Source of the DNA: Akkermansiaceae bacterium
Lineage (GTDB): Bacteria > Verrucomicrobiota > Verrucomicrobiia > Verrucomicrobiales > Akkermansiaceae
NCBI GenBank assembly: GCA_015062055.1
Contig: SUVK01000002.1
Coordinates: forward strand, 24,703-88,702
Direction of reading: 5' to 3'
Length of the DNA: 64,000 nt
Shown here: positions 7,031 through 23,516 of the stretch, piece after piece
How the letters are laid out: each line of letters opens with the position of its first letter
Position numbering within the stretch: position 1 is the first letter of the stretch
The notes under the pieces: model-generated
Databases searched by the model: none
What the model was told of the DNA's origin: nothing
Seen by the model: the letters and a program-made list of their open reading frames with translations, nothing else
Made by a program: the position numbers and the translations under genes

Positions 7031-9136
7031 TTATTCCATTGTAAATATGGGCGACAGGGGGAGCGCCTTTGTCCTCTCTGTTGTCAGTCCCTCGTCTGAT
7101 ATATAATAGAGCTGTGCTGCATCTTTTGCTTGGCGTATGAAAACAGGCTCTCCTTCTTCATTTATAAAACCACAATATACGGCTGTTGCCGAATAATCAT
7201 TTAGAAAGTTTTGCTTCATCTCTGCGGCATAGTCGTGCCCTTTATGTGTCTTAAACCATTCGTCAAAAGCCCTTTCTGCACGTTGTACGGCGGGGTCTGC
7301 GCTGAGCCAGCAGCCGGGTCGCAACGTAATCTTGTGCTGTTTTATCAGGGCGGTAAATGATTCGGCGTGCTTTTTGAGAGTAGGCGAGAATCTGATACCG
7401 GTGAGTATGGGGTGCGGGTGTGCATCCAACAATTGCAATAAGCTCAGATACACATAGGCTTGTGCCAACGCCGGGTGTTTTCCCGTGGGGTAATTTAATA
7501 CCTGAGTCAACAATCCGGGTATATTGTGACTGATAAAAAATGTGTTGCGCTCGATGTTTAAATCTTTTACAAGTTGCGTTGCATCAATTTCTGTCAGCTT
7601 GTAGGTGTCATCATTTTGAAATTCCATTAAATTGTGTTCCGGGGAGAAATTCGGGTCGATGGAGCTTCTGCGGAAGGTGATGAAGTTTGATTGATGCAAC
7701 TCCGGCTTTATTGTGCTGTACCATGTTTCTGTTTCAGATATTTTCAATGCGTACACTTTGTAATGGTACGATGGTGCAGTAAACAGGTCTTCCGGTATTG
7801 TTAAAATGGTAGTATTGGGTGGGAATTCGGTGGGGAATGTAGGCGCGCCATCCAGAATCGCTGCTTTTGTCGCAGAAAAGAGTGCAGGTGTACAGCCCGC
7901 TTTGTTTGCCGATATTTGGGTTGTTACCTGTTGTAAGGTGAGTAACTTCCCTTTGATAGCCATAAGATTTTTAGATTCGCTGTATTGCGTGGTAGGTATA
8001 CTGTGGATAACCGAACAGAAAGAATTGTAACCGGCGCATGAGTTTAATTGAGTCAATCGAGATTGCAGTTGCTTTGTTTCGTGTATCGTACGCGTAGCCC
8101 ATTCTATTTTGCCGGTCAGCGTTGTCACTATGTCAGACTGTATGTTGTAGAGCCTTAAAGTGCTTTGTGTTTCCGCCAAACGAGTCTTCAAGGTTTGCAG
8201 ATATCCTTCCAGCGATTGCAGGTATTGCGGTAAGGTGCTATTTAACAAAGGCTCAGGAGGTAAGGGGTGTTCTAGTCTGTTTCTGATTTGAGCTTGATTT
8301 GCCCGCATTTCCGAATAACTTTGCCTGCATAAGTCTTGCCAGCGAGATCGTAATTGCTCTTGGTTGATGCGACTTTGGGAAATCTGATTTTCTATATTCA
8401 GCAATTCGGACGGGCCGAGGTCTATGATTAGCTTTCGTCTGTTTTCAAGTTCAGTTAATAGCGTATCAATGTCTCTGTAGGTCTTTTCCTGTTGGGCTAT
8501 CCATTGTTCAGCCTCTAAGATAAGGAATGAAAGCTCCGGACAGAAATAGAGGTTTATCTTGCTGTTTGCTTGTTTTTTTGTCTCAAGAAGTTTTGAGTAT
8601 GAGGGAGTGGCTAAAGCCTCTTTTAAGTCGTGTAAATGTTCGTGTGCGCGGTTATTCATGGCGTACCAAGTACCCCCTACGATAGCGCATGCGCATGCTG
8701 TTATAATGATTTTTCCGATGTGTTTACGTATTACTCGCCCCGATAATTCTCTGGTTCGTTTTTTGAGTGTTTTTTTGTATAGAATGACTTTTTCCGGCAT
8801 CTGTTGCCCGGCGTTGAGAATAATTTTTTCATGCTGTTGCAGTTTGGTCAGAATTAGGCGCAAGGTTTCGTTATTACACAAACGCAGTTCGTCAATGGGG
8901 TGATCATCGATGAGCCATTCAATGGCTTTACGCGCATCGTCAACCATGGCTTTTTTTCGTTCGGCTGCCGGCAGCATCAGTCGTAACGGTTCACCGTTGT
9001 TGAGGCGTCTCAGTTCCTCTTGCGCTTCAATATCTTGAGGGTTTGCTGTTGCGTAGTCTTGCAGCAATAATCTCAGCTCATCCCGGCGCTCGGCAAGCGC
9101 AAGGCGTTTCAGATGTCGCTGTATAGTGGCATTCAT
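7031..9136 (-). CDS. large single-pass coiled-coil membrane protein of unknown function
   Basis: I do not recognise this 701-residue protein. Residues 1-135 are charged and helical with Leu/Arg-rich stretches. One membrane helix (about 142-160, IIITACACAIVGGTWYAM) follows. The remainder, probably periplasmic, has a long coiled-coil/helical region (about 170-400) and a C-terminal ~250-residue domain without a motif I know. It directly follows the GTPase and GAP1-like genes with 21-nt spacing, which suggests it is the third component of that system, perhaps a membrane scaffold or effector. The start has no Shine-Dalgarno motif. It could also be structural and unrelated to the GTPase. Confidence 0.75.
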   Translation of the reverse strand: MNATIQRHLKRLALAERRDELRLLLQDYATANPQDIEAQEELRRLNNGEPLRLMLPAAERKKAMVDDARKAIEWLIDDHPIDELRLCNNETLRLILTKLQQHEKIILNAGQQMPEKVILYKKTLKKRTRELSGRVIRKHIGKIIITACACAIVGGTWYAMNNRAHEHLHDLKEALATPSYSKLLETKKQANSKINLYFCPELSFLILEAEQWIAQQEKTYRDIDTLLTELENRRKLIIDLGPSELLNIENQISQSRINQEQLRSRWQDLCRQSYSEMRANQAQIRNRLEHPLPPEPLLNSTLPQYLQSLEGYLQTLKTRLAETQSTLRLYNIQSDIVTTLTGKIEWATRTIHETKQLQSRLTQLNSCAGYNSFCSVIHSIPTTQYSESKNLMAIKGKLLTLQQVTTQISANKAGCTPALFSATKAAILDGAPTFPTEFPPNTTILTIPEDLFTAPSYHYKVYALKISETETWYSTIKPELHQSNFITFRRSSIDPNFSPEHNLMEFQNDDTYKLTEIDATQLVKDLNIERNTFFISHNIPGLLTQVLNYPTGKHPALAQAYVYLSLLQLLDAHPHPILTGIRFSPTLKKHAESFTALIKQHKITLRPGCWLSADPAVQRAERAFDEWFKTHKGHDYAAEMKQNFLNDYSATAVYCGFINEEGEPVFIRQAKDAAQLYYISDEGLTTERTKALPLSPIFTME

Positions 9137-9157
9137 TTTTCTGAGAACGTTTTAATG

Positions 9158-10096
9158 CTATATTGTCATGGCGACAATGACCGAAAGCATGAATACTACT
9201 ATTACCCCGAATATGAAGAAACTAATTTTGCTTGTTTTCTGGGGCATATCAAAGCAGTCATCATCCGGTGCTTCTGTGTATTTATACGGTGTGGGGGTGC
9301 TTTGTTGTGTTATTGTACTCGTTGGTGATGGTATCGGTTCGGGGTGTAGGGTGGCGGTCTCCGGCAGTGGAACTGTGTTTGAGATAGGGGCTAGTTTTCT
9401 TCTTAATGCCAGAGTGGGTACCGTTGGGCTTCTATCTGAGCTCCCCGGTAATAAGGTAATATCGTTCTCTTTGAAATCTATTTCCGGGTTAATGGAGAAA
9501 CTGCGAAACCCTTTAGACCAACCTCGGTCTGAGGTAAGCCACATGCTTTCATGTAAAAGTAATAAAAATTGCTCGTTGGTTATTGTGTTAAAAGCCTGTA
9601 TGTAGCAGTGTGTGTTGTATGGTGGGGCGAGCAAAAGTGTTGCATTGCTTTTGTGTCCGGTGAGTGTTTTCCAGGTTTGCTGAGTCGATGCATCCGGTAA
9701 GGCCGAAGCAGGCATATGCGGTGCTTCTCGAGGAATAATTATAGTGGAGTCGGCTTGTGTCTTCCAAAAATTCCGGCTTAATAAGGCATAAATAATTCCG
9801 GCGGGGGTGGGGCGTGCGCTGTTCTCTTTCAATGCTGATACCTCATCATGCGTTAATGCCAGGTGGTGTATGATTTTTTGCCCTTGGGGTACACCGTAAA
9901 TTGCGGTCAAAATATGGCAAGAGCCATTTGTGTGGTAGCAATAATGCGTGCTATTCGGAGGGTAAGGGAACTCGGCTATTATTTGGCTCAATACGTCAAG
10001 TGATAACGCCAAGTCTTGAGGAATATCGGGTGATTCAGCGTAGACAGCTACTGCCTTACTGTCCCTGTCTATACCTCTGACCGATTGATAAGACAT
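9158..10096 (-). CDS. GAP1-N-like tail-anchored protein linked to the GTPase
   Basis: A 312-residue protein with a soluble N-terminal domain (about 1-215), a Pro/Ser/Thr-rich linker and a C-terminal membrane helix (ISFFIFGVIVVFMLSVIVAMTI), so tail-anchored facing the cytoplasm. The N-terminus (MSYQSVRGIDRDSKAVAVY...) and the later WSKGFRSFSINPEID stretch resemble, by eye, GAP1-N domains, GTPase-associated proteins predicted from comparative genomics to partner P-loop GTPases in conflict-type systems. I cannot confirm this without a profile search. It lies 12 nt after the GTPase gene and 21 nt before the coiled-coil gene. Confidence 0.65.
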   Translation of the reverse strand: MSYQSVRGIDRDSKAVAVYAESPDIPQDLALSLDVLSQIIAEFPYPPNSTHYCYHTNGSCHILTAIYGVPQGQKIIHHLALTHDEVSALKENSARPTPAGIIYALLSRNFWKTQADSTIIIPREAPHMPASALPDASTQQTWKTLTGHKSNATLLLAPPYNTHCYIQAFNTITNEQFLLLLHESMWLTSDRGWSKGFRSFSINPEIDFKENDITLLPGSSDRSPTVPTLALRRKLAPISNTVPLPETATLHPEPIPSPTSTITQQSTPTPYKYTEAPDDDCFDMPQKTSKISFFIFGVIVVFMLSVIVAMTI

Positions 10097-10108
10097 AATA
10101 GCCGTCTT

Positions 10109-11833
10109 TTAATTGTCGGAAAGTAATGATTCATTACAATAATTCAATACCCAGAGTGCGCAATCCGTTACATGGGCAGGGGTTAATTTGCCTTCGGTCG
10201 GGGCAATATAGATTTGCCCGGTTAATTCATCTTCGATTTCCTCCGGCGTTGTGCCGAATGAGGAAACGGCAAAGTAACTTACGTTATCTGATATAGATTC
10301 AGCGCTCGTGCAAATCTCGGGAGTGAGTCTGAACAGGAAATCTCGTAAGCGGTCGGAGTTTTCTTGTATGTTTTGAAGTTTTAATGTGTTGTTGCGGACG
10401 GCAGGGTGCAGGGGCTCCGGCCCCAAGAGTTCTTGCCACAAATCGCTTTTGGTCATTATGATGGCCAGTGGTTTATCGATTTTTGTGCTTGGCGGTAAGT
10501 TAAGCGTTTTGCGAAGGTGAATTTCGATATCTGCTAACAAAAGTGATTGCTTACAACGGTTGCGTGAGCATAGGTTTGCAACATCCGGGTTTGCGCCTTT
10601 GATTATTTCGGCAAATGCAGGTTCTTGTGTTGGGTCGAAAAGATAAAAAATAGCATCGGCATGTCTCAGCACGTCTTTATCATCTTTCCCTTCACTGTGG
10701 ACGTTTGTGTGATAAAGTGCCAGTGTGTGCGATTCTGAGTCTCGGTTGAATGCGTAGATGAATGGCCTGGGCATATCAGCGTATGCACCATCGAGCCATA
10801 CTTTACTTCTCAGTCGTGCTGCGAGTAATCCATGCCCCTCTCTGAACTCTTGCGGCGTGTTAGAGTAAAAGATCTTTATCCTCATGTTGTTGAGCGCTGC
10901 GTTTTGTTCAGGGTCTGCATCTCTGAAGGGAATACCGAAGCTGCGTGGCAGTTCTCGCTCTAATTGCTGTACCAGAGCCGACATGTAATAGGTTTTGCCC
11001 ACTGATTCTGCGCCGACTATGGCGATACTGTGGTGTATGGCTCTTTCGTAGAATGGTGGTAATTTATGATGACATGCCGGGCATGCGTATTCGTGGCTTA
11101 CCGAGCCCATCTCATCAACCGGTTTGCCGTCATCCGTATACACGGTGGGGGTGTATCTCTTCATGCATCGTTCGCCCAGTATGGGGTCTCCTTGCAGTAA
11201 AGAATGGGTTGCTATTGCTTTGGCTTGCTCCGGGGTGAAGGTGTGATAACAAAAGGCGCAGCAGAAAGTAGAGCTTTTCAGCTTTGCTGAGGTTGAGCTC
11301 TTTAAGGTTTCTCCGTCATTTTTTATTAAAAAATCTGCGACTTCTGCTAAATCATGAAGCCTGAATGCGTTGCGGTCTATGCCGTAGAAGGTCGCCAGTA
11401 CATTTTCATCGTACTTTCTGCACTCTTTCAAAATAGAGCAAAAATCCATCTCTTCGCTCCATTCTTGAGTATTCGGGTTATAAATATACCAGCTGTCAGC
11501 ATCGAATGTTGCAAAGTCAGGGCGCGAATCTTCATTGCCATACCATGCGATAAAGCAGCCTCCGCTCAATACGAATATGTAAAATCGCTCCGGTTTGATG
11601 TGGGCTATTCCGTTCGTGCGGTTTCCGTTGACCGAATAATCTGTAATTTGATTGTGCGGAAAAAACTTGCAGATGCCGTTACGTTGCGCAAAGACGCCGG
11701 CATTTTCTGCTTCGGTCTTGATGCGAAAAGTATTTTGCTTGCCCGAGCCCACAGCCATGAAATCTCCGTTAGAGACTCGAAGTTTTCCGGTCAGACAATC
11801 ATAGACATAAAGTTGATCTTTCATAAACGGCAA
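10109..11833 (-). CDS. zinc-ribbon P-loop GTPase with FHA-like N-terminal domain
   Basis: A 574-residue soluble multidomain protein. Residues ~1-105 look like a divergent FHA/beta-sandwich domain (DYSVNGNRTNG). A WYIYNP segment (~120-155) may be GYF_2-like. Cys pairs CCAFC and CPAC (~195-265) suggest a zinc ribbon. A GTPase domain follows with Walker A GAESVGKTYY, a TKSD specificity motif and a G5-like SSFG. The DxxG switch is not recognisable: the expected place reads HTNVHSEG. It resembles the DO-GTPase group associated with GAP1 proteins (recalled, not searched). It is the first gene of a seven-gene run. A TTG at 11833 (12 nt after the -10) or the ATG at 11824 is the start. Confidence 0.75.
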   Translation of the reverse strand: MPFMKDQLYVYDCLTGKLRVSNGDFMAVGSGKQNTFRIKTEAENAGVFAQRNGICKFFPHNQITDYSVNGNRTNGIAHIKPERFYIFVLSGGCFIAWYGNEDSRPDFATFDADSWYIYNPNTQEWSEEMDFCSILKECRKYDENVLATFYGIDRNAFRLHDLAEVADFLIKNDGETLKSSTSAKLKSSTFCCAFCYHTFTPEQAKAIATHSLLQGDPILGERCMKRYTPTVYTDDGKPVDEMGSVSHEYACPACHHKLPPFYERAIHHSIAIVGAESVGKTYYMSALVQQLERELPRSFGIPFRDADPEQNAALNNMRIKIFYSNTPQEFREGHGLLAARLRSKVWLDGAYADMPRPFIYAFNRDSESHTLALYHTNVHSEGKDDKDVLRHADAIFYLFDPTQEPAFAEIIKGANPDVANLCSRNRCKQSLLLADIEIHLRKTLNLPPSTKIDKPLAIIMTKSDLWQELLGPEPLHPAVRNNTLKLQNIQENSDRLRDFLFRLTPEICTSAESISDNVSYFAVSSFGTTPEEIEDELTGQIYIAPTEGKLTPAHVTDCALWVLNYCNESLLSDN

Positions 11834-11895: not shown

Positions 11896-11924
11896 GGCAT
11901 CTCCTCGTTTGCTGAGGAGATGCC
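11896..11924 (-). terminator. terminator of the RND efflux operon
   Basis: An 11-bp stem GGCATCTCCTC/GAGGAGATGCC with a 7-nt loop, followed on the minus strand by TTTTT, 30 nt after the RND transporter stop. Confidence 0.85.
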
Positions 11925-11955: not shown

Positions 11956-14900
11956 TTATGAATGCTCATCAGCCTCCAGTTTGGCATAGGCTGCTACTTC
12001 ATCCGGGTCTTCTCCGTGTTGTGCTTTTTCGATTTTGCTACGGAAGAGTTTCATCACAAAGACGAAGGAGCAGGGGATGAAGAATACGCCGATAATAGAC
12101 GCCACACTCATGCCGACAACCACTACCACACCGATAGCGTTACGGGCCAATGCTCCTGCGCCTTCTGCTGTAAGCAACGGTACGCAACCCAGAATGAAGG
12201 CGAAGGAGGTCATGAGAATGGGGCGTAAACGCATGCGTGCAGCTGTTACGGCGGCATCAATCAAGGTCATGCCTCGCTCCATTTGCAATACGGCGAACTC
12301 CACAATCAGAATTGCATTCTTGGCTGCAAGACCCACCAACATTACCAACCCGATCTGAGCATAGATGTCGAGGGTGAGCCCGAACATCCACAAGCCGACG
12401 AATGCTCCCAATACTGCAATGGGTACCGAAAGGAAAATGGCTATCGGGAGGGTCCACTTTTCATACAATGCCGCCATAATCAAGAAGGCAAATACGCCGG
12501 AAAGCGTGAAGATGGCACCCAGCCCCAGGCCGTCTTGTACCTTTTTCTCTTGGAAACTCATATCCACATAGCTCATGGAGAATTTGGTAACGTCCATACT
12601 TTGTGCGAATACTTCATCAATGGCGGCCATGGCTTGTGCAGAGGAGTAGCCATCTGCCGGTTTGACGCTGATTTTGCCTGCGTTGTAATTGTTGTTGTGC
12701 AGTACGAACTCAGTATCTGCCGTGTCAGATATTGTTACCAGTGTGTCCATGGGCACTTTCTCGCCTTTGTCGTTGGTAACGTAGAAGTTTGCAATCTGGT
12801 CCGTATTGACGCGGTGCTCGCCGTCTGCCTGCATGTATACCTGCCATTGCTGGCCGAACTGTGTATAGTAGTTCACGAATCTGGACCCGTTAAAGCACTG
12901 TAACAGAGAGTTTGCTGCAGCATAGTCTACACCCTGGGCCAAGCATTTTTCTTTGTCGATAACAATGCTCTTTTGCGGTACTGCCGGCAGCATCATGTCA
13001 GATGCCGATGCAATGGCCGGGTGGGCATTGAGCGCTGCTTCGAGCTTTTTGACTTGCTTGTAAAGCACGGCAACGCCTTGTCCTTCTTTATCTTCGAGCA
13101 CGAACGATATGTCATTGCCCGTGCCTACGCCGGGAATGGCCGGTGGGCTTACCATGAACACCATGCCGTCTACACCGGCGTTGGACAATGCCGGCATAAT
13201 GCTCTTGAGCAAATCATTTGCCGTGGGCTTTTTGCCATTTTCCATCTCAGGGCGGTCCTCAAAGTCTTTGAGTTTCACGAAGTAGGTCATGGCGTTGGTT
13301 GTTTGCACGCCGATGACCATGTTCATACCCACTACGGAAACGACATTGTCCACCCCCGGGGTGCTCAGCAGAACATTTTCAACAGTGGGGCTTTGTTCTA
13401 CGAGGCGTTGCAATGAGACACCCGGGGTCATGATTACGCCGGCAATCAAGAATCCCTGGTCTTCATCGGGTAAGAAACCGCCGGGAACTTGCTTGGCAGA
13501 AGGGATAATCAGTACGCCCAAACCGACTAGCGCGGCCATTGACATGGTTAGATTACGGCACATGAAAGCGCAGGCAGAAGCAAACTTCGAGGCAATGTAA
13601 TCGTACACTTTGTTAAAGCCGTTGTAGAAGGGGGTCAAGAATGACTTGTGGTCCTTCTTGGGCTTGAGCATCAAGGCTGATAACGCGGGTGAAAGCGTAA
13701 GTGCATTGAATGCAGAAATAAGCATCGAAATGGCGATAGTGACGGCAAATTGTTGGAACAAGGTGCCGGTAATGCCGGGCAGCAATACGGAGGGTAAGAA
13801 CACCGCAGCCAAAACCAAGGCAATAGCCACAACAGGGCCGCTTACCTCTTTCATGGCTGCAAATGTGGCTTGTCTTGCCGTCATGCCATTCTCCATATGC
13901 GATTCTACCGCTTCTACTACCACAATGGCATCGTCTACTACCAAGCCGATGGCCAGCACCATGCCCAGCAGGCAGATGGTGTTGAGCGAGAAGCCGAGAA
14001 TCGGGAAGAAGCAGAAAGAGGTAACCAATGATACCGGTACGGCGATAAGGGGAATTAAGGTTGCGCGCCAACCTTGCAGGAAGAGGAATACAACTATGGC
14101 TACCAATACGAGTGCTTCGAACAGTGTGTGGATAATCTCGTTGATAGAGTCGCTGACGGTGGTTGTGGTATCAAGTGCCACGAAACCACGCATGCCTTCC
14201 GGCATGACGGCTTCTTTCTCCTTGAATAATTTTTCCAGGTTGGCAACGGTTTCCAGTGCGTTGGCATCGGCAGCCTGATAGATGGCTAATACCGTTGCAG
14301 GGCGGCTGAATCCCAGCTCGCTTTGGCCTACTCGGCCTGCAAGGGAATAGCTTTGTGAGCCGAGCTCTATCTTGGCAATATCTTTAAGCCTTACAGATTG
14401 TGTGCCGTTTTGATGAACAATGATGTTTTCAAACTCTTCGATGCTTTCCATTCGGCCTTTATTGCGAATCGTGTAGGTAAACTCTTGGCCATCAGGCATG
14501 GGTTCTGCACCGACTGCACCGCCGGGGTTAATGGCATTCTGTGAGTTGACGGCGTTGTATACGCTGTTTACCGAGATGTTCTTTTGTGCCATTTTTTCGG
14601 TATCCAACCAAATACGAACGGCGAAACGGCCACCGAACACCATTACGTCGCCCACTCCTTTTACTCGTTTAATCGGGTCTACTAAGTTAATGTAGGCGTA
14701 GTTCGAAAGGTCAATCGGTTTAAAGAATCCTTGCGGGGAGTCTATGGCGTACAGCATCATGGGCAACCCGGAAGATTGCTTAATATTTACCCCCATTTGA
14801 GCTACAGTGTTAGGCAGCTGAGACGTTGCCTGACTGTATTTCATGTAGGTAAGCTGCTGATTGGTGTTAGCATCGGTCCCCGGTTCAAAGATAACGTTGA

Positions 14901-15168
14901 TAGAGCAACTGCCGTTGTTGGAGGAGGTGGACGTTACATAATCCATACCCTGCATGCCGGAGAGCTGCAGTTCTATGGGCGTAGCTACGGAGTCCGCTAC
15001 CTCTTGAGCGTTGGCGCCGGGATATGAAGCACTGAGGTTAATGGTGATGGGGGCGATGTCCGGATACTGAGAAATCGGTAATCCGAGCATGCAGATGACG
15101 CCCAGCATGGTTGTCACTATTGAAATGACGCCGGCGATAATCGGGTGTTTAATGAAAAAAGGAGACAT
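11956..15168 (-). CDS. RND efflux transporter, AcrB/MexB (HAE1) type
   Basis: A 1070-residue proton-driven inner-membrane pump of a tripartite efflux complex. The N-terminus MSPFFIKHPIIAGVISIV and QYPDIAPI are typical of HAE1 pumps. Proton-relay residues are present: GLVVDDAIVVVEAVE (paired Asp of TM4) and GLAAKNAILIVEFA (Lys of TM10). Twelve membrane helices and two large periplasmic loops fit the usual length. Substrates cannot be read from sequence. It lies 13 nt after the double adaptor gene. No TolC-like outer-membrane factor is in the window, so that partner must be encoded elsewhere. No local TetR/AcrR regulator is visible. Confidence 0.95.
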   Translation of the reverse strand: MSPFFIKHPIIAGVISIVTTMLGVICMLGLPISQYPDIAPITINLSASYPGANAQEVADSVATPIELQLSGMQGMDYVTSTSSNNGSCSINVIFEPGTDANTNQQLTYMKYSQATSQLPNTVAQMGVNIKQSSGLPMMLYAIDSPQGFFKPIDLSNYAYINLVDPIKRVKGVGDVMVFGGRFAVRIWLDTEKMAQKNISVNSVYNAVNSQNAINPGGAVGAEPMPDGQEFTYTIRNKGRMESIEEFENIIVHQNGTQSVRLKDIAKIELGSQSYSLAGRVGQSELGFSRPATVLAIYQAADANALETVANLEKLFKEKEAVMPEGMRGFVALDTTTTVSDSINEIIHTLFEALVLVAIVVFLFLQGWRATLIPLIAVPVSLVTSFCFFPILGFSLNTICLLGMVLAIGLVVDDAIVVVEAVESHMENGMTARQATFAAMKEVSGPVVAIALVLAAVFLPSVLLPGITGTLFQQFAVTIAISMLISAFNALTLSPALSALMLKPKKDHKSFLTPFYNGFNKVYDYIASKFASACAFMCRNLTMSMAALVGLGVLIIPSAKQVPGGFLPDEDQGFLIAGVIMTPGVSLQRLVEQSPTVENVLLSTPGVDNVVSVVGMNMVIGVQTTNAMTYFVKLKDFEDRPEMENGKKPTANDLLKSIMPALSNAGVDGMVFMVSPPAIPGVGTGNDISFVLEDKEGQGVAVLYKQVKKLEAALNAHPAIASASDMMLPAVPQKSIVIDKEKCLAQGVDYAAANSLLQCFNGSRFVNYYTQFGQQWQVYMQADGEHRVNTDQIANFYVTNDKGEKVPMDTLVTISDTADTEFVLHNNNYNAGKISVKPADGYSSAQAMAAIDEVFAQSMDVTKFSMSYVDMSFQEKKVQDGLGLGAIFTLSGVFAFLIMAALYEKWTLPIAIFLSVPIAVLGAFVGLWMFGLTLDIYAQIGLVMLVGLAAKNAILIVEFAVLQMERGMTLIDAAVTAARMRLRPILMTSFAFILGCVPLLTAEGAGALARNAIGVVVVVGMSVASIIGVFFIPCSFVFVMKLFRSKIEKAQHGEDPDEVAAYAKLEADEHS

Positions 15169-15181
15169 AATAACTCAGATA

Positions 15182-17977
15182 TCAGAATTTTTTAAGATTA
15201 GACGTAGGTGTTTTATCTGCCGTTACAGAGGGTTCTACGGTTTTAGGCATGGTGTAGATAAATTCTCGTGGTGCCACTTTGTTGGCGCGTCCGTTTGCCT
15301 TCATGTTGGCCTGCATGGCCATGGCTGCAGGTATGGTCCCTTCGACGATTACTTTTATCTTATCGAGCGGGAGCAAGGCTCCTTTCTCGTCAACAAATCC
15401 CATGTGTACAAGAAGTTGCGGGTTAAGCTCGATAACCTGCATGGGTTGCTCTACTTCTTTACCATCGGGGCCTGCCACCGGTATGGTTACGATGGGTCCG
15501 CGCTTGATTGGTACCGCTGTGGGGGCGCCATCCGGTCCCACCAGCAATACGATATCATGACCTTCTGCATTCATGGGGGCTCGTGCCGGTACGATGTAGG
15601 CATTTTTGAAATCTCTGGCTACAATTCGCACCGTTACGGGCATACCGCTGCGCAGACCGTGAGTTACATTTTCAACCTCACCCACTATACCGAAGGTGCC
15701 GGTGCTTTTCTTAACAATGTTGTCAGGCGAAACGATTTTCCCTTCAACGGGGTATTCGCTACCATCTTCCAGTATAATTTTGAACGGCATGCCACCGTTG
15801 GGGTTGTTGATGCCTACTTGATTGGTGATTAAGAGAGTGTCTCGACCACTTACCTGAAAATCTACTCTCAGCGTGTCTACCGATGAGAGGGTGACCATGG
15901 CTTCGGGATCTGTTGAGGATACCAGTGTACCAATAGAGGGTTTGCTGATGCCGACTCGTCCCCGGAACGGTGCTTTAATGGTGGTGTAGCTCAGATTGAT
16001 CTCAGCCGTTTTAACGGCGGCCTTCATTTGAGCAACATTAGCTTCTGCAAACCGCAGGGCTGCCTCTTGGGCTTGTACTGCACTTTTTGCTTCGGTTATA
16101 TCTTTTTCCGAATACGTGTTGGGGGTTTCGATGTTGGCTTTTGTTTTACGGCTCAAGGTGTCTTGCGCTTTTGCCAGCTCGACTTCTGCCTGCGTTTTAC
16201 CTGCCTCGGCCGAGGCTAGATTTGCATTTGCCTGGTCTAACTGGGCTTGATAGGGACGCGGGTCAATCGTGTAGAGAATATCACCCTCATTTACGATGGT
16301 ACCGTTGCGGAAGTGCTGTTTGAGCAAGAACCCGTTGATGTGCGGGCGAATTTCTGTTTCTTCTTTACCGCGTAAGCTGCCGAACCAGTCGGAATAGACG
16401 CTGATGTCTTGTTGACGTAAAGCGGTAACTTTTACGGGAACGGGCGGTTGGGTTGCCTTGGCATTCGGGTCAATCTGAGGTTGCGCTTGTTGTTGGGCAA
16501 CTCGCGGGTCTGCCGGTTTGAAGGTGAGAATCTCGGGCTTAACGGTTGCCGGTACAATTGTATCAGGAGACGGTATTTCGTCTTCCATGCCCAATGCAAT
16601 GAGGAAGCTGCTCAGTGTGCTATCCTTTTGTTTCTTGTATGCTTCCTCTTGTTCTTTCTTTCGCTCGGGCAAACGCGAATTTGCAGACGAGATATTCATA
16701 GCCTGCACGCCATTGTCGGGGTCGGCTACGACACAGGCTTTTGTAACATCCGTTTCGCCTTTTGGGAGATAAGGTTTGATGGTTTCATCAAGAGGTGTGC
16801 CGGTGTAACTACCAATGGCCACGAATTGTTGTTTTGACGTATAGCCGGTTTCGGGCTCTGTGACTTCGATTTCGTATGTGCCTTCCTCGACAACCGGGAT
16901 GGCGTGTGGTACGTTTTGTGCATCAACGACAATGATGAAATTGTTGCGCAATACGGTGTAAATGGCACTCGGTGGCACTAATAATGCATCTCTTTTGCTT
17001 GCGGCAAGGGGAATTCGTACATTTACCTTCATGCCACTGCGCAATTTATGAGCGGGGTTTTCGATTGTTCCCACAATATCGACAAGTCCGGTTTTGTCTA
17101 TGCGACTGTTGATGGAGAGTAAGTCGCCTTTCACCGGGGCGTTATCGTGCGTGTAGATGGAGCCGTCTTCCAATATAAGCTCAAACTTGGGAGATTCAGC
17201 TTGAAGGTTCTCGTTGATTGTGGCCGATTCTACCTGTCCGAAGCGCTCGAATCCTTGTAACAGAGCGTCACTGTTAATTGAAAAATCAACACGCAAAGGG
17301 CCATCGGATACGATATTGCCAAGCTTGGTTGTCGGCCCGACTAAGGCGCCTGTAGATACGTTTGCCGTGCCGACAAAACCGGAGTAGGGGGCTCTGACGG
17401 AGGTGTAATCCAAATTAATCTGAGCCGTTTTGCAAGCTGCTTCTTTTTGCTTGATGTCAGCTTCACATGCTTTCACTTTGGCTTCTGCTGCTTGCAGGTT
17501 CAACCGAGCCTCGGTGTAAGTTTTCTCTGAAACGGCCGTAATGGTTTTGTGTTCTTTTTCCTCTTTTTCTTTTAAAGCCGTGTAGCGGTCGCAATCAGAC
17601 TGCCATTTATCGCGCTCTGCAATGGCTTGGGTGAGGGCTGCTTTTGCGGCCTGATGGTTTGCCTGGGCTCGCTCGAGTTCGGCTTGGAACGGTTCCGGGT
17701 CAATCTGAAAAATAACGTCGCCCTCTTTTACCTGTTGCCCTTCTTTGTAAGAAATGATGAATCCCGAAACACGAGGGTATAAGTCAGTATCCTGAACACC
17801 CCGTAAGTAGCCCATCCATACAGCGCTATCGGTAACGCTTACTTTGCGGATGTTGAATACTTTAACATTTGGGGCCGGGCTGGTTGCTTCTGCTTTTTCT
17901 GTCTCGGAACAGGAGGTCATGAGTACCCCTGCTGTACACAGACTGAAAGCTAAGGCTGTAATGGCTTTTTTAGTCAT
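15182..17977 (-). CDS. tandem-fused RND periplasmic adaptor lipoprotein (two membrane-fusion-protein units)
   Basis: A 931-residue protein made of two complete HlyD/AcrA-like adaptor units in one chain; a single unit is usually 350-450 residues. The signal peptide ends in a lipobox (LMTSC), so the N-terminus is likely lipid-anchored. Unit 1 (about 35-400) and unit 2 (about 510-890) each have a lipoyl half-motif (PRVSGFI / PHINGFL), IDPEPFQAEL / IDPRPYQAQL, a helical hairpin, INLDYTSVRAPYSGFVG / INLSYTTIKAPFRGRVG and LRSGM before a beta-barrel. A ~100-residue Pro/Gln/Lys-rich linker joins them. Start ATG 17977; the ORF track uses an upstream TTG. It is next to its RND pump. Confidence 0.92.
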   Translation of the reverse strand: MTKKAITALAFSLCTAGVLMTSCSETEKAEATSPAPNVKVFNIRKVSVTDSAVWMGYLRGVQDTDLYPRVSGFIISYKEGQQVKEGDVIFQIDPEPFQAELERAQANHQAAKAALTQAIAERDKWQSDCDRYTALKEKEEKEHKTITAVSEKTYTEARLNLQAAEAKVKACEADIKQKEAACKTAQINLDYTSVRAPYSGFVGTANVSTGALVGPTTKLGNIVSDGPLRVDFSINSDALLQGFERFGQVESATINENLQAESPKFELILEDGSIYTHDNAPVKGDLLSINSRIDKTGLVDIVGTIENPAHKLRSGMKVNVRIPLAASKRDALLVPPSAIYTVLRNNFIIVVDAQNVPHAIPVVEEGTYEIEVTEPETGYTSKQQFVAIGSYTGTPLDETIKPYLPKGETDVTKACVVADPDNGVQAMNISSANSRLPERKKEQEEAYKKQKDSTLSSFLIALGMEDEIPSPDTIVPATVKPEILTFKPADPRVAQQQAQPQIDPNAKATQPPVPVKVTALRQQDISVYSDWFGSLRGKEETEIRPHINGFLLKQHFRNGTIVNEGDILYTIDPRPYQAQLDQANANLASAEAGKTQAEVELAKAQDTLSRKTKANIETPNTYSEKDITEAKSAVQAQEAALRFAEANVAQMKAAVKTAEINLSYTTIKAPFRGRVGISKPSIGTLVSSTDPEAMVTLSSVDTLRVDFQVSGRDTLLITNQVGINNPNGGMPFKIILEDGSEYPVEGKIVSPDNIVKKSTGTFGIVGEVENVTHGLRSGMPVTVRIVARDFKNAYIVPARAPMNAEGHDIVLLVGPDGAPTAVPIKRGPIVTIPVAGPDGKEVEQPMQVIELNPQLLVHMGFVDEKGALLPLDKIKVIVEGTIPAAMAMQANMKANGRANKVAPREFIYTMPKTVEPSVTADKTPTSNLKKF

Positions 17978-19241: not shown

Positions 19242-20066
19242 GTGTCTGAGTACAAAACAGAAAATCGTTATTCGTGGTGGCAGTTAGGCTCTTTGTGGTC
19301 GCTTGATGTAGCAGTTGTTGCTGTCTGTTGGGGATGGCTGTTGGCAGTGATTTTCGGTATAAATCGACTTGCGACAGAGCCTATGTTGTTTGTGCTTTTT
19401 TCCGCTTGGGCTTGTGCTCTGTTTGCAAAGACTGCATCGGGCAGGGGGGCTAATTGCGCATATTATCGTGCGCATGCAAGGCTTATATCGCTGTTTGCGT
19501 TGTGTTGTCAGTTGGTGGCGTTGTGGCTTTTGCTATGGAGGGTAGGGCAATGTTACCTTCATTTTATTACAATACCATTGTTTTTTTTATTGATAGCTCA
19601 GGTGCCGTATTTAAGAAAACTGACCCTTTATCGAGTGTTTTGCATCTCTGCCGCATTTGTATTTAACTGTGCAATACCTGCTTATTATCACAGTTTTACA
19701 TATACTCCCCTCGGCATGATAACTGATGGTTGCCTGTGGAATATAATTTTTGTTTTCATCGTGTTTAACTTAGCGAGAAATGATTCGCAAAATAACGAGA
19801 ACCCGGATGTCGGTGAAGCGCCGGGGCAATTGTTATTTCTTCTTTTATTTTTACCGTGTGTACACTACTTGTTATCATCCGGTCCGACAATTGATTTCGA
19901 TTTCCGGTTTTACTCAGTAATCTGTTTAAGTGCTGCATTTTTATTCGTTTGCAATAAGCTGCGAGCAAGATGGTCGGGTGTGAACCGGTGCCATACTACA
20001 TGGTGGCTATTGCCTATACCGGCCATGTTGGGGGTGATTTTATACGCAGTTTCGGCTATGGTTTAA
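19242..20066 (+). CDS. polytopic membrane protein next to menaquinone genes
   Basis: A 274-residue protein with about eight hydrophobic helices. The size, helix number and position beside menDBC would suit a UbiA-superfamily prenyltransferase such as MenA. However, I find no NDxxDxxxD or DxxxD aspartate motif, so the assignment is not supported by active-site residues. It may be a degenerate or unrelated membrane protein. The GTG start at 19242 (VSEYKTENRYSW) is chosen from promoter spacing. The 3' end overlaps the convergent menC stop by four bases (TTAA shared). No signal peptide besides the first helix. Confidence 0.6.
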   Translation: MSEYKTENRYSWWQLGSLWSLDVAVVAVCWGWLLAVIFGINRLATEPMLFVLFSAWACALFAKTASGRGANCAYYRAHARLISLFALCCQLVALWLLLWRVGQCYLHFITIPLFFLLIAQVPYLRKLTLYRVFCISAAFVFNCAIPAYYHSFTYTPLGMITDGCLWNIIFVFIVFNLARNDSQNNENPDVGEAPGQLLFLLLFLPCVHYLLSSGPTIDFDFRFYSVICLSAAFLFVCNKLRARWSGVNRCHTTWWLLPIPAMLGVILYAVSAMV

Positions 20067-21082
20067 TTAAACCGTAAGAACTCGCCCTCCAGGCAAAGTC
20101 GTTTGCTTGCATCGTTTACAAATAATTGGCCCGTACCAAGTCCATGCAAGGTGTGCGGGGCGACCAGTCCGCACCATTCTGCCAGAGTTTCTAAGCCGAC
20201 ATGGCTTTCGAGGGCAGAATTGACCCACCAACTGATTTTTTGCGATTCAGCTTGCTCGGCCAAGGCTTTGGCAGCCAGCAACCCGCCGTGTAAAGATGGT
20301 TTAATGACAACACCTTGAGGGCGTATCGTTTCGAGCATTTGTCGTATGTTTTGCGTATAAATCAGCTCTTCATCCAGAGCTATGGGGATGGGTGTATGGC
20401 GGCATAGCTCAGCCAAGGCTTGCCATTGTCCGGGTTTGATGGGTTGCTCTATAAAACTGATGCCGAGGCGAGCCAAAACTTCGAGGTTACGATGTGCCTC
20501 TCGTGGTTCCCAAGCGCCGTTGGCATCTAATCGTATTTCCGCATTCGGGAACGCTTGTCGCGCAGCTTGCAACATTTCTGTTTCATGCGTGAAGGGATGT
20601 GCCCCCACTTTCATCTTAAGACAAGTAAAGCCTTGAGCTATAGCTTTGTGCATGTGCTGCAACATGGTGGGTATGTCTGCCATCCAGATTAACCCGTGTA
20701 TTCTTATGCCTTCTTCTCCTCGCGAAAAGGGCGAGTCCCAGCGCTTGTCTCCCTTGGATTGTGCTGCAATGACCGCTGATTCCAGACCGAATCGGATGGG
20801 TGAGGGCATGCCCGGCAGCGTAAGGGTTTGGTGTTGCATGACTTCATCACACCAATATTGCATCTCTGCGGGGGTGATGTCTTTTAACAATCCGGGCATG
20901 ATACAGCATTCGCCCTCGCCGGTGCCTTGACTACACGCCGCGTGTACAATGTAGGTTTCTCTGCTTGTCAGCGCACCGCGAGAGGTGGTGGCCGGGCGCC
21001 GGAATTGCAGGGTACGATGCTCCCACCGCAGGGTGATGGCTTGCGGGAAGTGAGTTAACGTGGCTTGGTCCGGCTGCACCAT
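20063..21082 (-). CDS. menC: o-succinylbenzoate synthase
   Basis: MenC dehydrates SHCHC to o-succinylbenzoate in menaquinone synthesis. The 339-residue protein is an enolase-superfamily member: catalytic KMKVG (Lys), metal ligands in LDANGAW (Asp), EQP (Glu) and DEE (Asp), and the second Lys in VIKPS. The ATG at 21082 overlaps the menB stop as TAATG, a classic coupling arrangement; the ORF-track start at 21163 would lie inside menB. Last of menD-menB-menC. The call is supported by both motifs and neighbours, although enolase relatives such as N-acylamino-acid racemases look similar. Confidence 0.9.
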   Translation of the reverse strand: MVQPDQATLTHFPQAITLRWEHRTLQFRRPATTSRGALTSRETYIVHAACSQGTGEGECCIMPGLLKDITPAEMQYWCDEVMQHQTLTLPGMPSPIRFGLESAVIAAQSKGDKRWDSPFSRGEEGIRIHGLIWMADIPTMLQHMHKAIAQGFTCLKMKVGAHPFTHETEMLQAARQAFPNAEIRLDANGAWEPREAHRNLEVLARLGISFIEQPIKPGQWQALAELCRHTPIPIALDEELIYTQNIRQMLETIRPQGVVIKPSLHGGLLAAKALAEQAESQKISWWVNSALESHVGLETLAEWCGLVAPHTLHGLGTGQLFVNDASKRLCLEGEFLRFN

Positions 21083-21900
21083 TAAGGCATTTTGGGGAAT
21101 TGCGAGAAATCCGGTTTGCGTTTCTCCAAGAATGCCCGCGAGCCTTCGTGTGCTTCCTCGCACATGTAAAAGAGCATGGTGGCATCGCCGGCCAGCTCTT
21201 GTATGCCTGCCTGGCCGTCCAGCTCTGCATTCAATCCGGCCTTAATCATACGCAGGGCAATGGGTGAGTGCTGCATCATTTCTTCTGCCCATTGTACATA
21301 TTCATCCTCCAGACGGCTCAGGGGTACTACTTTGTTGACTAAGCCCATATCTAATGCTTCTTGCGCATTGTATTTGCGGCAAAGGAACCAGATTTCTCTC
21401 GTCTTTTTCTGTCCGATGCAGCGAGCCATGTATGAGGAGCCGAACCCGGCATCGAAGCTGCCTACTTTGGGCCCGGTTTGCCCGAATATCGCGTTCTCGG
21501 ATGCAATGGACACATCGCACACCACGTGCAGAACATGCCCGCCACCTATGGCGAACCCGTTAACTGCTGCAATAACCGGTTTGGGGAGGGAGCGTATTTG
21601 TTTTTGGACATCCAGCACGGACAGTCGGGGGATTCCTTGTTGGTCCACATATCCACCATACCCTTTCACGTTCATATCGCCACCGGCGCAAAAAGCGACG
21701 TCGCCGGCACCGGTGAGTACAACAACTGCCACATCTTGCATTTCTCTGCACAGGCTCAGTGCATTGCTCATTTCTGCCGTTGTGAGCGGGGTAAAGGCAT
21801 TGCGGTAGCGTTCTCGATTGATGGTGATACGGGCTATGCCGCCGTATTGTTCAAATAAGATTTCCTCGTACTGCTTGATGGTTTTCCACTCTCTTTTCAT
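21082..21900 (-). CDS. menB: 1,4-dihydroxy-2-naphthoyl-CoA synthase
   Basis: MenB closes the second ring of menaquinone from o-succinylbenzoyl-CoA. 272 residues of the crotonase fold, with oxyanion-hole segments [11 protein letters not shown] and [20 protein letters not shown] and the MenB-specific [18 protein letters not shown]. The N-terminal [26 protein letters not shown] is also typical. It sits 2 nt after menD and overlaps menC by one base. menE, menF, menH, menA and menG are not in the window. Confidence 0.96.
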
Positions 21901-21902
21901 GT

Positions 21903-23516
21903 TTAATGTTCTGAATAAAAGTTTTTCAAAATGGCTGCATCTCGTTGAGCATCGGTAAAGGCTTCTACAAGCACGGGGGATTCGGTGTTGTGGAGAAGCG
22001 CCGGTAGTGCTGTGCCCCAGTCGTCGGCATTAAAGACGCTGTGGTATTCAAAACCTCGTGCTTTTGCCCAAGCCTCTGCCGTTGCGCTGTGCGGGGCATT
22101 GATGCAATCCAGATTAGGGGCTCCGATGGTCGAAAAAATGCCCCCGCAGCTGTTGTTGAGCAATAAGATGCGTATATTGCCGGGGATGCCGTTCATCCAC
22201 AAAGCGTTCATGTCGTAGAAGAAGCTCAGGTCGCCGATGATGAGAAACTGAGGGCGGGAATCTCCGGCGGCATAGCCCAATGCTGTAGAGAGGGAGCCTT
22301 CTATCCCGTTGACCCCGCGATTGCATTCCACTTGAATGCCTGCCGGCAAGGGGAAAAGGCGCGCATATCTTACGGCAGAGCTGTTGCCCAAGTGCAAGAC
22401 AGCGGGTGAGGGCAGCGATTTCATGAGGTCGCCTACCAGGCTGATGCCGCAGTGTTGAGCCTCAAACTCAACGGGCGGGGTCTGCCATAAACGTCGGTAT
22501 GCGGCATCGCCTTCTTCCGCAAAGGCTCCCAGTAGCTCCAGTAATTCACTTTTATCGCCTTCTATGACTCGCGTTAAACAACAGAAGGTATCGCATACCT
22601 CGCCATTGCTGCATAAATGCCAGTGTTCTGCCGGTGGATTCTGTCGCAACATTCGCTTCAGTCGTTTCGAAATGGTATCACCGCCCATGGTAATCAAGAG
22701 GTCCGGTGAGGGAATGCAGGGGAAGTTGCTATCCGGGCCAATCAGAGTGTCCGGGCGTGTGCAGTCTGCAATGGGGCAATTGCTCAGGTGCTCGCCGACC
22801 AAGGCAAAGCTGTGGTCTTCCATCAACTCCGGGGGAAAATAGGGAGCTTCATCCATTTGCCCCATCAATATCATGCGGCGGGGTAAAAGTGCCGTAATCT
22901 CCAACAATTCTTGCTCTTCATCAGCTGTCATGCGTGCCAGCTCGGTGCGGCGTATGACGCGAGGGATGGGTAATGGTTCTTCCGTTTCTTCAAACAAGGG
23001 CTCGCATAAGGGCACATTGATGTGTACCGGGCCCCCACCACGGTGTCTGAGCTCGAGCAATGCTTCGTTTATGAGTCTATTGGTGTACCAGCCTTCCGGA
23101 TCATACTCGGGCAATGCGGCGCTCATACGGTTGAGTGCCCCGAAGACGTTAGGCTGAGGTATTGTTTGCCCGTCTTGTTGCCCTATCCACTCTGCGGGGC
23201 GGTCTGCCGAGATAATCAAGAGAGGTATCTTGCGGTAAGAAGCTTCTGCTACTGCCGGGTGCAAGTTTAATACTGCCGACCCGGATGTTACGCAAACTGC
23301 CACGGGGGCCTGTGCTTGGGCTGCCCAGCCCAGTGCGACAAATCCGGCACCTCGCTCATCTGTCACATGGCGGCACTCAAACTCATTGCAAGCGCTAAGA
23401 GTGGCACAGATGGGGGCGTTGCGGCTGCCGGGGCATAATACACAACGTGTTACGCCGTGTGCCAGCATGAGGGCTACCAGTTCTCGCACGACGTGTTTTT
23501 TGCTCGTTTTTGCCAT
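21903..23516 (-). CDS. menD: SEPHCHC synthase (menaquinone biosynthesis)
   Basis: MenD is a thiamine-diphosphate enzyme that joins 2-oxoglutarate-derived succinyl semialdehyde to isochorismate. 537 residues. The N-terminal half shows [19 protein letters not shown] and [16 protein letters not shown]. The C-terminal ThDP/Mg-binding segment is [13 protein letters not shown]. First gene of the menDBC operon. It has a well-formed promoter 6 nt before the ATG, with a CATAC-N5-GTATG dyad in the spacer that could bind a regulator. Confidence 0.96.

Follow-up and report, generated by a model that had tools for sequence, protein, structure and literature searches.

The window (the whole 64,000-nucleotide stretch of DNA that was analysed) encodes two RND periplasmic adaptors joined in a single polypeptide, a lipoprotein of 931 residues (P0001) whose gene adjoins that of an AcrB-like pump. 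This protein is probably a pre-paired (pseudo-dimeric) adaptor for an AcrB-type drug/proton antiporter, and three such chains would serve each pump trimer. The principle of the fused adaptor is already published. What is new is that these double adaptors are natural and RND-linked, that both halves are complete, that they are conserved in a clade and that they have arisen twice. Below, double adaptors of the window's kind are called type A, and those of a second kind, encoded elsewhere in the same genome, type B.

A double adaptor in one open frame

The adaptor gene, the parts of its product and the remainder of its unit lie as follows (positions in the window):

15182..17977, minus strand: one open frame of 931 aa, a double RND periplasmic adaptor; 52 genomes of the genus have homologous single frames
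17909..17977, minus strand: lipoprotein signal peptide, residues 1-23, with the lipobox ending at Cys23; the chain has no other lipid anchor
16673..17908, minus strand: first adaptor half, residues 24-435, taking in part of its own C-terminal tail, up to a conserved NISSANSR
17408..17695, minus strand: helical hairpin of half 1, residues 95-190, with an R-L-S tip; model helices 95-141 and 148-190
16442..16672, minus strand: junction, residues 436-512, made up of the rest of the family-typical tail, a subclade-specific insertion and a short spacer
15263..16441, minus strand: second adaptor half, residues 513-905, without its own start or lipobox; a short C-terminal end comes after it
15989..16258, minus strand: helical hairpin of half 2, residues 574-663; model helices 574-617 and 624-663
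11956..15168, minus strand: HAE1-type RND pump (AcrB-like), 1070 aa, starting 13 bp past the adaptor stop
11896..11924, minus strand: strong terminator-like hairpin after the pump gene, with an 11 bp stem and a T tail

The adaptor frame runs from an ATG at 17977 to a stop at 15182 and has no internal stop. The family model TIGR01730 (RND_mfp) matches its product twice, in separate stretches, and scores 316.9 bits where the cut-off is 94.9. With an intact frame and this twofold match, the initial annotation's reading of two complete RND adaptors in one 931-residue lipoprotein is borne out. The repeated motif sets on which that reading was built are all where it had placed them: IDPEPF (residues 92-97) and IDPRPY (571-576), APYSGFVG (196-203) and APFRGRVG (669-676), and LRSGM twice (312-316 and 775-779). 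Alignment of the halves agrees with its description of them as diverged, since the N and C halves of one type A protein are on average 36% identical; either half of P0001 is about 29% identical to AcrA. The lipobox of P0001 reads MTSC, and the Cys at that column is found in 51/51 homologues. Altogether, P0001 displays the marks of an adaptor: a TIGR01730 score above the cut-off, a hairpin, a lipid anchor and an adjoining transporter gene.

That transporter is HAE1-type by TIGR00915 (958 bits; cut-off 940), as the earlier naming of an AcrB-type pump had it. It keeps the paired Asp in TM4, and the motifs VVDDAI and GLAAKNAIL are present. No outer-membrane-channel gene was found in the adaptor-pump unit; OEP genes lie only elsewhere in the genome, where one channel gene belongs to a complete operon of adaptor, pump and channel whose adaptor is a related single one.

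The junction between the halves

The two halves had been described as joined by a linker of about 100 residues, a description that needs to be revised. The stretch from residue 436 to 512 is largely the C-terminal tail of half 1, and the same tail is present in the single adaptors of the group. What is extra is an insertion of 25-30 residues, confined to the subclade of P0001, and a short spacer. Across the 51 type A homologues, 44-80 residues (median 50) separate the tail motif from the beginning of half 2, and the junction is variable in sequence and Pro/Ala-rich in places. Neither a stop nor a start was found between the halves in any of 51 A-type and 45 B-type proteins. That is, the layout that would have contradicted a natural fusion (separate genes, with a stop codon between the halves) has no instance among them.

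Hairpins, tip motif and domains

In P0001, the R-L-S motif that docks adaptors to the outer-membrane channel is complete in half 1 (R128, L132 and S139 in the numbering of AcrA; over the region used, the AcrA sequence matches that of the PDB chain). In half 2, R and S are kept and L is replaced by A, so that its contact with the channel may be weaker. Over the type A alignment, the N-half tip has R in 51/51, L in 49/51 and S in 51/51 proteins, and the C-half tip has R in 51/51, L in 40/51 and S in 40/51. P0001 alone among the 51 homologues carries, in the hairpin tip of half 1 (17522-17590), an 8-residue Lys/Glu-rich insertion around EKEEKEHKT. This site should touch the outer membrane channel.

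The hairpin, lipoyl, barrel and membrane-proximal parts are kept in both halves, and neither half is without a whole domain. We considered whether one half could be a pseudogene and ruled this out, given that domains and motifs are kept in both. Domain-wise conservation is unequal between the halves. The membrane-proximal domain aligns poorly, and the residues with which AcrA docks to AcrB are kept only in part. An AlphaFold model of the single P0001 chain, made from an input alignment with just two distant single adaptors besides the double chain, gives each half a long hairpin of two helices; its confidence (pLDDT 53, pTM 0.30) is too low to predict the relative placement of the halves.

Most A-type relatives (for example, L061:5656-8625 and L063:4842-7700) have an extra 60-100+ residues in the membrane-proximal domain of half 2. 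This stretch consists of repeated helical-looking units (LVLRxAGAKDELxLIAxGxGF) and is absent from P0001.

Occurrence and evolution of type A

The double adaptor recurs in related genomes. In the genus of the window's genome (76 genomes), the type A gene is unbroken in 52, cut by contig ends in 2 and absent from 22; the genomes compared are mostly draft or metagenome assemblies. Identity among carriers goes down to 39-41%. The same frame at such distances means that independent assemblies hold a maintained gene, and the suspicion of an assembly-created fusion is countered by its presence in dozens of diverged assemblies. In an rpoB tree of 27 genomes, every carrier falls in one long-stemmed clade and no carrier lies outside it; the window's genome, from whose draft rpoB is missing, is grouped with the carriers by its genes.

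In a tree of the 51 aligned type A proteins, the N-halves and the C-halves form two separate clades (support 100/100 and 100/99). Such clean separation indicates that the halves parted ahead of the clade's radiation, with no homogenisation since. For the choice between internal duplication and fusion of paralogues, AU tests gave p values of 0.47 and 0.385 for the alternatives. No relatives with two separate adaptor genes were found, and the nearest outsiders have a single adaptor. Among 388 genomes of the phylum, no double adaptor was found outside the genus, and in no plasmid record did a single place cover 80% of the query. Long open frames in five genomes (G272, G149, G377, G148 and G194) were rejected as candidates, each being one adaptor domain with a spurious upstream reading frame.

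A second double adaptor and its pump

The same genome encodes a second double adaptor, the type B protein, outside the window:

L048:7000-9264 (G000:C53:26999-29263): second double RND adaptor (P0003), 754 aa, adjoining its own RND pump

Like P0001, this protein is a double adaptor beside an RND pump, found in the same clade and with the same branch of origin. It differs in having an ordinary signal peptide without a lipobox, in the connector between its halves, in belonging to another adaptor subfamily and in its pump, which carries an additional insertion on the periplasmic side. The connector is only 15-20 aa long, and this is kept in all 45 proteins; the halves must therefore be close neighbours. 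Type B is present in 58/76 genomes of the genus. Over the 76 genomes, 53 have both types, 5 have B only, 1 has A only and 17 have neither. Within the double-adaptor clade, type A seems to be absent from G021, G451, G454, G455 and G011, and type B from G445; the absence of one system in these six genomes reflects either loss or gaps in the drafts.

In the trees, the A and B doublings lie in different adaptor subfamilies, and the sequences indicate that the two adaptors were doubled independently, on the same branch of the genus. Outgroup species retain a single-adaptor orthologue of B together with its pump. The best tree of type B makes the halves sisters (88/81), with the alternatives not rejected.

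The pump of the type B system (L048:3661-6969; orthologues, e.g. L208-L227) has changed as well. In a comparison of 16 readable double-adaptor pumps with 10 single-adaptor orthologues, 31-70 extra residues are present in 16/16 of the former and 0/10 of the latter. The insertion lies just after TM7, before the motif S-F-[IVL]-P-x-E-D, at the periplasmic membrane surface. Its position relative to the membrane-proximal domain of the adaptor is one that we presume from the general topology of AcrB. Since the double carriers all belong to a single clade, the insertion is counted as one coupled change rather than 16. Nothing like it was found in the type A pump, which shows a 3-residue difference only.

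Two B-type homologues (L076 and L102, of G029 and G030) contain a single TAG each, inside an adaptor domain and away from the junction. These codons are due to either sequencing error or recent inactivation.

Proposed assembly and alternatives

Six RND adaptor units surround a threefold pump and channel, with the dimer considered the functional unit (PMC4446572, PMC4338810). In the assembly that we propose, half 1 would carry the single lipid anchor of each double chain. Three of these chains would ring one pump trimer, their halves alternating N-C-N-C-N-C. This would give 3 pump : 3 double adaptor : 3 channel, which amounts to the usual 3:6:3, and each of the two non-equivalent ring positions would be taken by its own fixed, specialised half. 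The ring would meet, tip-to-tip, a TolC-like channel from another part of the genome, for example the one next to the pump with the related single adaptor. The clade's other pump went through the same change independently.

The initial annotation had suggested that the fused dimer lets three chains make the hexamer. This is still the best reading and agrees with the fused AcrA, with DSY0927 and with TriA/TriB; the stoichiometry itself is something that we infer. Its further suggestion, that each half takes a defined place, fits the separate clades of N- and C-halves from the base of the group, and the placement may be as described. It is quite possible, if somewhat short of an even chance, that two unrelated RND pumps each gained a fixed heterodimer adaptor and that the pump of one co-evolved a membrane-surface loop recognising the joined pair. 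If so, both systems would fix for good which half takes which of the pump's two non-equivalent adaptor positions.

Rather than being roughly equal members of the ring, the halves might split the work, one mainly holding and activating the pump and the other mainly recruiting the channel, as in a fused TriA/TriB-like pair with strong subfunctionalisation. Their identity of 36% is the same as that reported for TriA and TriB (PMC4338810), the C-half tip is laxer than the N-half tip (S 40/51, L 40/51), and the unequal conservation of domains points the same way. Yet no whole domain has been lost from either half, and the tip R is present in 51/51 proteins in both, which makes a strong division of labour unlikely. 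It is less probable again that the chain is a precursor, cut at the junction into two ordinary adaptors (an anchored half 1 and a soluble half 2). A variable junction with Pro/Ala-rich places, as in type A, would suit such processing, but half 2 lacks a lipobox, no conserved cleavage motif was seen, and the B-type junction is only 15-20 aa long and retained in 45/45 proteins.

Another stoichiometry, with six double chains per pump or with one half of each chain outside the ring, is about as improbable as the cut precursor: twelve adaptor units mismatch the threefold pump and channel, the short type B junction leaves little room, and published models have six adaptor units (PMC4446572). The source genome is a draft of 87 contigs, which brings to mind an assembly artefact, a frameshift or a degenerate gene. 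Against this stand the 52 genomes with the same frame at identities down to 39-41% and with both halves kept, the junction without stop or start and the location of the two B-type TAG codons inside domains; an explanation of this sort can practically be set aside. The pre-paired adaptor, with three chains per pump trimer, is the probable reading.

Relation to known systems

Each half of P0001 resembles the AcrA/MexA-type adaptors (TIGR01730) in its full domain set and hairpin, and in the adjoining HAE1 pump. Unlike them, P0001 has two adaptors per chain and one lipid anchor. TriABC-OpmH of Pseudomonas aeruginosa likewise combines one pump with two non-identical adaptors, TriA and TriB, which are partners and 36% identical (Zgurskaya et al. 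2015, PMC4338810). TriA and TriB are, however, separate genes, whereas the type A pair is one polypeptide in all homologues.

Natural fusion of adaptors has a precedent in DSY0927 of Desulfitobacterium hafniense, which Symmons et al. 2015 cite along with a functional fused AcrA (PMC4446572). The DSY0927 fusion has been used as an argument for adaptor dimers (PMC4446572, PMC4338810). It shares with P0001 the natural joining of two adaptors in one polypeptide. Compared by its description, DSY0927 belongs to an ABC transporter, has an N-half without the coiled coil (Zgurskaya et al. 2015, PMC4338810) and comes from a Gram-positive lineage, whereas P0001 is RND-linked and complete in both halves. 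The tandem AcrA (Xu et al. 2011, cited in PMC4446572) also places two adaptors in one chain and complements in cells; it consists of engineered AcrA copies, in contrast to the natural, diverged halves of P0001. A natural RND double adaptor was not found in our full-text literature search. In the PDB, chain 6vej_P of entry 6vej (695 aa) is named as two RND membrane fusion proteins, and we take it to be an engineered TriA-TriB fusion.

In a homo-hexamer all subunits are identical, so the position and job of each adaptor in the 3:6:3 assembly are hard to test. A natural chain with two distinguishable halves allows each position to be mutated alone. In addition, two parallel cases are available in the clade; for one of them, related species supply single-adaptor orthologues as controls, and its pump shows a candidate matching change.

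Other genes near the adaptor

Three neighbouring minus-strand genes at 7031-11833 (701, 312 and 574 aa) are without a Pfam match; the 574-aa gene has a P-loop-like GAESVGKTYYMSALV and a zinc-ribbon-like set of cysteines. At 20063-23516, the menaquinone genes menD, menB and menC lie in a row, and the menC frame, if read from the listed GTG, shares about 80 bases with menB.
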